A stretch of DNA of 64,000 nucleotides, from positions 1-64,000 of the forward strand of contig JHUT02000009.1 in NCBI GenBank assembly GCA_000690595.2, given 5' to 3'. The position numbers and the translations under genes were made by a program. Below, one piece after another: positions 17,448 to 19,178 of this stretch. The stretch comes from Natrinema mahii. Lineage in GTDB: Archaea; Halobacteriota; Halobacteria; Halobacteriales; Natrialbaceae. The notes below the pieces were generated by a model, which saw only the letters and a program-made list of their open reading frames with translations, made no database searches and was not told where the DNA came from. Positions within the stretch are counted from its first letter, which is position 1, and each line of letters begins with the position of its first letter.

Positions 17448-19178
17448 CTACGTCGATCGCGCCGATTTCGTCCCGTCGGTCGGAACGGTGACGTCCCGGA
17501 ACTCGAACCGCGCACCGCCGTCGTCGCCGTCGCACGCGGCGACGGTCCAGCCGTGGGCCTCGGCGATCCCCTCGACGATCGCCAGTCCGAACCCGGTCCC
17601 CTCCGCCGCGGTCGTGTGGCCGAACTCGAACACCGACTCGCGATCCGCCGGCAGCCCCGCACCCGTATCCTCGACGTAGAAGCCGTCGGGACGGTCGCCG
17701 CTACCGGTAGACTGCAACTCTCGCTCGAGCGGCCCGACGGTGACGGTCAGCCGATCGGCGTCGCCCCCGTGTTCGTCGGCGTCCTGACGGGGGTGGGAGT
17801 CAGGGCTCGTCGAGCCGTGTTCGACGGCGTCCTGCTGAGCGTGCGAAGCAGGGCTCGTCGAACCGTGTTCGACGGCGTCCTGCTGAGTGTGCGAAGCAGG
17901 GCTCGTCGAACCGTGTTCGACGGCGTCCTGCTGAGTGTGCGAAGCAGGGCTCGTCGAACCGTGTTCGACGGCGTTTCGAAAGAGGTTCTCGAGCAGCGAG
18001 CGAACGCGGGCCTCGTCGCCGTACAGCTCGAGGTCGGTTTCGATCTCGAGGCGGGCGTCGCCGGTGTCGACGGTTTCCCAGGCCGCTCGGACCGTGGCCG
18101 CGAGCGGAAACCGCTCCTCGTCGCCGATCGCTTTTCCCTGCCGGGCCAGCTGGAGGAGGCCGTCGATGAGTTCCTCGATCCGGGCGAGCGACCGCTGCAG
18201 TTTCTCGACGTGATGGTCCGCTGCCTCCCCCTCGATAAAATCGAGGTGCCCCTGTGCGACGTTCAGCGGGTTCCGCAGGTCGTGACTGACGAGGCTCGCG
18301 AACTCCGCTAACCGCTCGTTCTGGCGCTCGAGTTCGCGTCGGTAGCGTCGCCGACGCGTGACGTCCCGAATCGCGTGTACCGTTCCGGTGAACTCCCCGT
18401 TCTCGAGCGGCAGGAGCCTGGTGTGGACGTCGTGGATCCGCTCCTCCCCGTCCGGCGACTGAAACCGAACCTGATACTTCGCCCGTTCGCGGTCAGTCGT
18501 CGAGGAGAGCAGGGTGCGGACCTTCTCGATGTACTTGGTTGTCACCTGCTCGTCGTAGTAGCCGCGATCGATGAGAGCCGGAAACGGCGTTCCGATCAGT
18601 TCCGTCCGCTCCTCGGTGAAGGGGTCGGCGAACTCGTCGTTACACCAGTCGATGACGGCGTCCGCGTCGAGGGTGAACAGCGCGGTCGGCACGAGTTCGT
18701 GGATTCGATCGTTCCCGACGGGGGTCCGGTATCGCTCGAGTTGCCGTTCGCTCTCGCGGCGGGCCCGTTCGGCGCGGCGTTTCGCGACGGCGTTCTCGAT
18801 CCGGTTTGCGAGCAGGGCGTACCGGGCAGTTCCCGACCCCTTCCGGAGGTAGTCGGTAACGCCGGCCGAGATCGCCTCGCTCGCGATCGCGTCGGGCTCC
18901 GTGCCGGTAAAGAGGACGAACGGGACCGCCGGATCGCGCTCCCGTATCGCCGCGAACAGCTCGAGACCGTTCATATCCGGCATCTCGTAGTCGCTGACGA
19001 TGCAGTCGATCGCTCGGTCGGTGGCGTCGCTCACGCCGTCGAAAACCGCCAGCGCGTCGCGGCCGTTCGCCGCGGTCGTCACGTCGATCTCGTCGCTCCG
19101 TCGCTCGAGACCGGTGGCGGTCCGTTCGCGGTGTTGGGGGTCGGCATCGACACAGAGGACGCGGATCCCCGGAGACAT
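17448..19178 (-). CDS. Receiver-PAS-histidine kinase with a repeat insertion in the ATPase domain
   Basis: 576 residues. A receiver domain occupies residues 1-125 with the phospho-acceptor Asp in IVSDYEMPDMNG and Lys in YLRKGSG. A PAS domain spans about 150-275. The HisKA box VSHDLRNPLN holds His299. The HATPase has its N-box at NLFRNAVEHG (about 393-402) and G-boxes DTGAGLP and GTGFGLAIV. Between the N-box and the rest lie four copies of a 16-residue unit ending in a near-copy of the N-box. There are no transmembrane segments, so it is a soluble sensor. No dedicated output regulator is adjacent. Confidence 0.92.
   Translation of the reverse strand: MSPGIRVLCVDADPQHRERTATGLERRSDEIDVTTAANGRDALAVFDGVSDATDRAIDCIVSDYEMPDMNGLELFAAIRERDPAVPFVLFTGTEPDAIASEAISAGVTDYLRKGSGTARYALLANRIENAVAKRRAERARRESERQLERYRTPVGNDRIHELVPTALFTLDADAVIDWCNDEFADPFTEERTELIGTPFPALIDRGYYDEQVTTKYIEKVRTLLSSTTDRERAKYQVRFQSPDGEERIHDVHTRLLPLENGEFTGTVHAIRDVTRRRRYRRELERQNERLAEFASLVSHDLRNPLNVAQGHLDFIEGEAADHHVEKLQRSLARIEELIDGLLQLARQGKAIGDEERFPLAATVRAAWETVDTGDARLEIETDLELYGDEARVRSLLENLFRNAVEHGSTSPASHTQQDAVEHGSTSPASHTQQDAVEHGSTSPASHAQQDAVEHGSTSPDSHPRQDADEHGGDADRLTVTVGPLERELQSTGSGDRPDGFYVEDTGAGLPADRESVFEFGHTTAAEGTGFGLAIVEGIAEAHGWTVAACDGDDGGARFEFRDVTVPTDGTKSARST
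17773..17964 (-). repeat. Four tandem 48-base units inside the histidine kinase N-box region
   Basis: Units begin at 17773, 17821, 17869 and 17917 on the plus strand. The last three are almost identical and the one at 17773 is diverged. Each encodes 16 residues of the form DAVEHGSTSPASHTQQ. The VEHGST start copies the last part of the kinase N-box, so the array looks like repeated duplication of a segment beginning in the N-box. It adds about 64 residues at about 406-469. Length in multiples of three keeps the frame. Confidence 0.9.

Follow-up and report, generated by a model that had tools for sequence, protein, structure and literature searches.

In-frame repeats behind the N-box of a haloarchaeal histidine kinase as probable stacked copies of a short palindromic mobile element

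Palindromes inserted in frame in protein-coding genes are known from Rickettsia, where they were described as RPEs (Ogata et al. 2000, 2002, as cited in excerpts of PMC10969869 and PMC3733652), and the same excerpts record intragenic REPs in some bacteria. In its excerpted text, PMC3733652 describes GTAG- and CGTC-tagged REPs as hairpins of 20–40 bp with loops of 4–5 nt and lists bacterial phyla only. In the haloarchaeon Haloquadratum, PATEs and SMRs are transposase-free small mobile repeats whose mobilisation is unknown; the palindromes of PATEs match IS605-type ends, and a PATE may be reduced to the pair of palindromes at its ends (PMC3119063). Here we analyze a repeat array in a haloarchaeal kinase gene and compare it with these systems.

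The window, that is the whole 64-kb stretch of Natrinema mahii DNA analyzed, encodes on its minus strand a hybrid histidine kinase of 576 aa (17448..19178; open reading frame list and Pfam) with the domain order receiver-PAS-HisKA-HATPase_c, and this reading frame is interrupted in frame by an array. The host site is the N-box of HATPase_c (PF02518); no curated family describes the insert, and the Pfam match to HATPase_c begins only at residue 469, beyond the array. TRF detected a single array in the window (17767-17974, period 48, 4.3 copies, 93% matches, score 346), the runner-up tandem score elsewhere being 81. A covariance model resolved four 48-bp units at 17778-17969 on the minus strand (E 3e-18 to 2e-14) and gave no further match above chance in the window. 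The in-frame array that the first-pass annotation had reported directly after the N-box was therefore recovered by both methods; the position proposed there, 17773-17964, was right for the array and wrong in phase by five bases.

All features of the array lie on the minus strand. On its left, the target side, stands the upstream part of the N-box, ENLFRNA, which ends in AACGCC (17970..17990; sequence and an alignment of 14 kinases). Unit 1, proximal to the N-box, reads VEHGSTSPASHTQQDA (17922..17969; sequence and covariance model). According to covariation and fold, it consists of hairpin 1, GTCGAAC-ACG-GTTCGAC, with a 7-bp stem that encodes V-E-H-G-S-T (17953..17969), and hairpin 2, CCTGCT-TCGCACACTC-AGCAGG, with a 6-bp stem and a 10-nt loop (17927..17948). 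The two are joined by the linker GAGC (17949..17952), which is conserved in the conservation line, and ACGCC closes the coding-strand plan. Unit 2 (17874..17921) is identical to unit 1 in DNA and unit 3 (17826..17873) is one base off both, as expected for units that are young or homogenised, which had been suggested from the letters alone. The distal unit 4 (17778..17825), as aligned by the covariance model, is the most divergent of the four and has one broken pair in hairpin 1, and the change in its hairpin 2 stem is compensated, CCTGAC..GTCAGG replacing CCTGCT..AGCAGG. The array ends in a partial fifth repeat of the unit start, GACGAACACGG (17767..17777; sequence and TRF), which encodes DEHG and is the right-hand copy of the target side. 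Each unit is translated as VEHGSTSP(A/D)SHxxxQDA. More generally, the plan is hairpin 1, the GAGC linker and a hairpin 2 with a TCGC..CTC loop, within ∼43–51 nt (48 in the window); size variants of 45 and 51 bp keep the two hairpins with other stems, for example AGTCGGCC-TGC-GGCCGAC and TTCAGAACC-TGGC-GGTTCTGAA.

To examine the stems independently of the protein, 68 units were picked by a protein-level pattern that fixes the amino acids and leaves the stems free. The third bases of the Val and Ser codons, both synonymous, were complementary in 65 of the 68 units (shuffles: mean 31.6, maximum 44), and those of Glu and Gly in 63 of 68. The downstream VEHG, taken as a comparison, showed complementarity in 33 of 68 units, that is, no correlation. 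The five column pairs with the highest mutual information were five of the thirteen stem pairs; two-sided changes in the named structure filled 105 cells against 42 after shuffling (0/500), and shifting a stem partner by one to three columns destroyed the pairing. In 27 copies outside kinases, 92.7% of stem positions were paired compared with 65.8% when shuffled. Because the stems covary at synonymous sites, beyond the reach of protein-level selection, these data indicate a nucleic-acid element whose translation is incidental. A pseudoknot between the GAGC linker and GCTC of the loop was also considered and was judged sterically unlikely without loop nucleotides.

The element is widespread in haloarchaea. 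The period-48 VEHGST..VEHG pattern occurred in 32 of 125 genomes of the same family (13 of 29 genera), and a reversed control pattern in none of the 125. The covariance model matched all 29 genomes of the genus and, at E 1e-5, at least one sequence in each of 161 of 242 Halobacteria genomes (56 of 74 genera). When ∼85,000 species genomes were searched with the exact pattern, haloarchaea only were returned, with 31 copies in 29 stretches; all 31 are read in one common frame, although three alternative frames stay open in 58–63 of the 68 units. Subtype B copies use one antisense frame throughout, and each subtype keeps one frame and one orientation. Every copy adds ∼16 residues, keeps the frame and is free of stops in the frame used. 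A phage search with the element gave zero matches. Besides these copies, the kinase's own genome holds an identical intergenic repeat of ∼141 bp at two places (C3:26707 and C3:55684, loci L204 and L205) that carries a related hairpin pair with a TCGCGTCGCTC loop, and further intergenic relatives lie at L201, L203 and L206. A double hairpin with entirely different stems stands at the 3′ end of an aminotransferase-like gene (L061, L208); at L061 it is flanked by direct repeats starting ACGCACGTCAG.

Copies in frame were also found outside kinases, in an MBL-fold/rhodanese protein (three positions), a tetrapyrrole methylase that carries the annotation cobalt-precorrin-7 (C5)-methyltransferase in Natronococcus, a Rieske protein and one protein without a Pfam match. 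Others are read from the opposite strand as GVSASDASGGSSDESDG, in TsaD/Kae1, GatE, OTCase and an OGG-like glycosylase; one more such copy lies in a protein that we take, from its motifs, to be aconitase. A search of plasmid records with the window array by plain blastn independently gave the cobalt-precorrin-7 methyltransferase of Natronococcus occultus and, in Natrinema sp. SYSU A 869, an MBL hydrolase.

Several of these sites exist in an empty form. Position 2 of the MBL gene is filled in several Natrinema genomes and empty in others (AFDAATLEDGDELRVGD), the difference being 48 bp, and positions 1 and 3 likewise have both forms. The methyltransferase site is filled in 7 genomes and empty in 22, again by 48 bp; there the flank on the right is the same as in the empty allele, and the copy on the left resembles the element. 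In the OTCase gene two genomes are filled and a 97% identical relative is empty, with a difference of 51 bp in the opposite orientation, and a kinase orthologue with an empty site reads NAIEHGGPDVTVTVG. The targets resemble the element's own junction, GACGCC|GTCGAAC (CAGGATACGGTGGAAC, GAGGACGGCGACGAAC, GGACGCAGACGAACTC, TATGCAGACGAA and CGGAACGCCGTCGAAC; on the other strand ACGTCGTCGAAAC). The likeness of target and element ends blurs the exact element boundary and masks any target-site duplication; a duplication of five bases (ACGCC or CAGGA) fits some sites, not all. At position 1, three MBL genes (L111, L112, L123) read DAAELKYAIDTH with GACGCCGCGGAACTG, which corresponds exactly to the left portion of the element; these genes fall short of the empty alleles in length, a possible scar of excision or decay.

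Taken together, the sequence comparisons lead us to propose, with a probability of roughly 0.8, that the array in the window kinase consists of stacked copies of a short palindromic element, mobile in haloarchaea and translated within its host gene.

We considered whether the hairpins are instead kept for a role in mRNA, such as stability, pausing or a regulatory RNA, with the coding frame secondary. The strong covariation in the transcribed strand would fit such a role, as would the intergenic relatives with the two-hairpin plan, one of which lies directly 3′ of a ribosomal-protein gene. However, presence and absence vary among close relatives in each gene examined, and subtypes are inserted in opposing orientations relative to the host gene. 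G-T/G-U pairs are rare in the stems, hence nothing points to pairing as RNA over pairing as DNA, and Rfam contained no family at gathering score, with only sub-threshold chance matches to miRNA families. We regard an mRNA role as improbable.

A second explanation is a coding tandem repeat peculiar to kinases, which grew by slippage and reached other kinase paralogues through gene conversion, its hairpins being incidental. Scans of kinases across genomes bear out the first-pass annotation's mention of VEHGST arrays in other haloarchaeal kinases as a recurring hot spot; kinase N-boxes are the commonest location and hold most of the copies. Neighbouring units can be identical, N-box DNA is conserved between paralogues, and genome-specific stem types would be expected from gene conversion too. 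Stem types common to different loci were seen in 60% of within-genome pairs compared with 7% between genomes (0/2000 permutations), which suggests that units spread inside genomes. Against this explanation, orthologous arrays mix differing stem types, covariation at synonymous sites requires a nucleic-acid cause, and copies in frame, with empty sites, are present in the MBL, precorrin methyltransferase and OTCase genes. The non-kinase insertions, found both by the covariance model and by plain blastn, contradict it as a full account, and with it fall two earlier views of this locus: that the repeat is a feature of kinases, when numerous unrelated enzymes carry this covarying double hairpin in frame and their relatives show empty sites, and that the N-box is expanded for the kinase's sake, when the VEHG of each unit is one arm of the element's hairpin. 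We consider the kinase-only repeat very unlikely, while slippage or gene conversion may explain growth inside arrays.

Copy number varies, as the first-pass annotation had anticipated. Orthologues of the window kinase carry 0, 1, 1, 1, 2, 2, 2-3 and 4 units. In a second kinase, Natrinema thermotolerans A29 has one unit and DSM 11552 has three, the strains being named as one species; this strain-level comparison consists of one pair of plasmid or contig sequences with a DNA identity of 90–95%. The two additional units of DSM 11552 lie towards the N-box and are of a different stem type. Some kinase loci are rearranged around the units. At L292 (genome G064, after 2685) a one-unit orthologue of the window kinase is followed, directly behind the unit, by foreign DNA with stop codons, and at L080 (genome G072, ∼1515) a PAS-type sequence is fused straight to a unit and the C-terminal part of a kinase, as though a deletion at the element had merged two kinase genes. 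Kinase arrays at L012, L013, L231 and L255 contain extra spacers of another type between units (GRRSASSEPSVADAPED, GRQPSGEPSVADAPED), possibly a further element family. At L248, L261 and L270 a NASEPSVADAPE-like peptide adjoins the units, suggesting a second recurring insert.

Such variation raises the question of whether selection acts on copy number to set kinase activity, as a rheostat or by phase variation; a phase-variation-like tuning had been suggested in the first-pass annotation. The frame is always kept, the number of units differs between close strains (one versus three in the N. thermotolerans pair) as well as among orthologues (0-4), and the array adjoins the ATP-site helix in sequence. 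An AlphaFold2 model built with 14 sequences showed a confident core, with blocks of pLDDT 90+ around the N-box helix, which stays intact. The array is predicted as a disordered loop (pLDDT 43–56) between this helix and the next strand; it lies ahead of the ATP lid in sequence and is not the lid itself. The N-box in use is the one encoded by unit 1, the original VEHG having been displaced downstream. This disorder, the decay of distal units, the orthologues that do without an array and the metabolic enzymes that carry the same element all argue against a device for tuning the kinase, which we hold to be most improbable.

Hairpin 2 was better paired in the first than in the last unit in 15 arrays compared with 3 (p 0.002, similarity 0.8), a polarity that would follow from entry of new units next to the N-box and decay of older ones away from it. 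Template switching at replication (quasipalindrome correction) perfects imperfect palindromes and could contribute to stem perfection, in keeping with the proximal units being the most perfect, but as a purely mutational source of the covariation it is hardly plausible, since it cannot create 48-bp inserts that share linker, loop and two-hairpin plan in unrelated genes and leaves unexplained both the genome-wide sharing of stem types and the empty and filled sites.

The reading of the array as stacked mobile palindromes can be put as a sequence of steps. The element would insert at sites like its own end-to-start junction, GACGNC-GNCGAA, the codons for D-x-x-E. Because hairpin 1 encodes VEHG, the haloarchaeal kinase N-box (AACGCCGTCGAACAC) would be a favoured and tolerated target: insertion there would rebuild the N-box upstream and push the extra residues into the loop behind, where the flexible chain should make the effect on the protein nearly neutral. 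Arrays may then grow on the N-box side by repeated insertion or recombination, and by tandem duplication; recombination between paralogues could also spread units within kinases. Movement might involve an intermediate of single-stranded hairpin DNA, as for REP/IS200-IS605-type elements, or short-homology recombination at self-like sites, with any enzyme supplied in trans or lost.

Candidate mobilisers were sought among known transposases. The kinase's own genome, which holds many copies of the element, gave zero matches to the Y1 transposase (PF01797), and across the genus no element lay within 1.5 kb of 18 Y1 or 30 TnpB genes. A RAYT-like mobiliser was rejected on these grounds, Y1 genes being absent from the own genome and none in the genus being flanked by the element. 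The ends of IS605/TnpB were rejected as a source as well, because the best match at the 30 loci scanned had an E of 0.055 and covered hairpin 1 alone. On balance, the broader proposal stands at about even odds: a class-wide family of mobile, protein-coding double hairpins, with an end that mimics the N-box, insertion that rebuilds the motif, copies added on the motif side, kinase arrays as a layered record of insertion and an enzyme not yet recognised.

By description, the closest counterpart is the RPE. Both are short palindromic repeats that lie in frame in many unrelated genes, whose relatives can have the gene uninterrupted, and are translated as an extra peptide, and dimers or clusters in one gene are known for RPE too. 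Unlike RPEs, the present element has an archaeal host, measures ∼48 nt compared with ∼150 nt for the first described RPEs, and combines two different hairpins, a fixed GAGC linker and a target like its own junction with a marked hot spot at a single motif within one family of genes and polar arrays. By analogy, then, it appears to work like an RPE, a comparison of descriptions that claims no shared descent. With CGTC-REPs, as the excerpts portray them, it shares genome-specific stem types, tandem or grouped copies and some copies inside genes. The opposite strand ahead of hairpin 2 reads CGTC at ACGCC-flanked copies and ACTGT at NS-type kinases (ACAGT at NSVEHG sites). In the same excerpts, however, REPs are mostly intergenic and have loops of 4–5 nt, whereas the loop of hairpin 2 has 10–11 nt and no CCA tail is present. 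Like PATEs and SMRs, the element is haloarchaeal and palindromic without a clear terminal inverted repeat, having two different hairpins near its termini and ends that are not inverted copies; this lack of terminal inverted repeats also sets it apart from a classical MITE. In contrast to PATEs, it is not near the 30 TnpB or 18 Y1 loci, and PATEs are not described as in-frame coding inserts. The element is not filed under RPE, CGTC-REP, PATE or MITE, because the defining features of these classes are lacking or were compared by description alone. A search of the open-access literature brought up no account of coding palindromes inserted in frame in archaea, haloarchaea included.

Until now, most examples of selfish palindromic DNA lying in frame in working genes came from Rickettsia and a small number of other bacteria. 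The family described here extends across an archaeal class, with empty sites, covarying stems, a preference for frame and target, and a change of copy number at the strain level, which opens the origin of protein-coding palindromes to testing in culturable, genetically tractable organisms. It also accounts for low-complexity inserts that are common in kinases of haloarchaea and would otherwise be taken for a functional enlargement of their ATP-binding domain.
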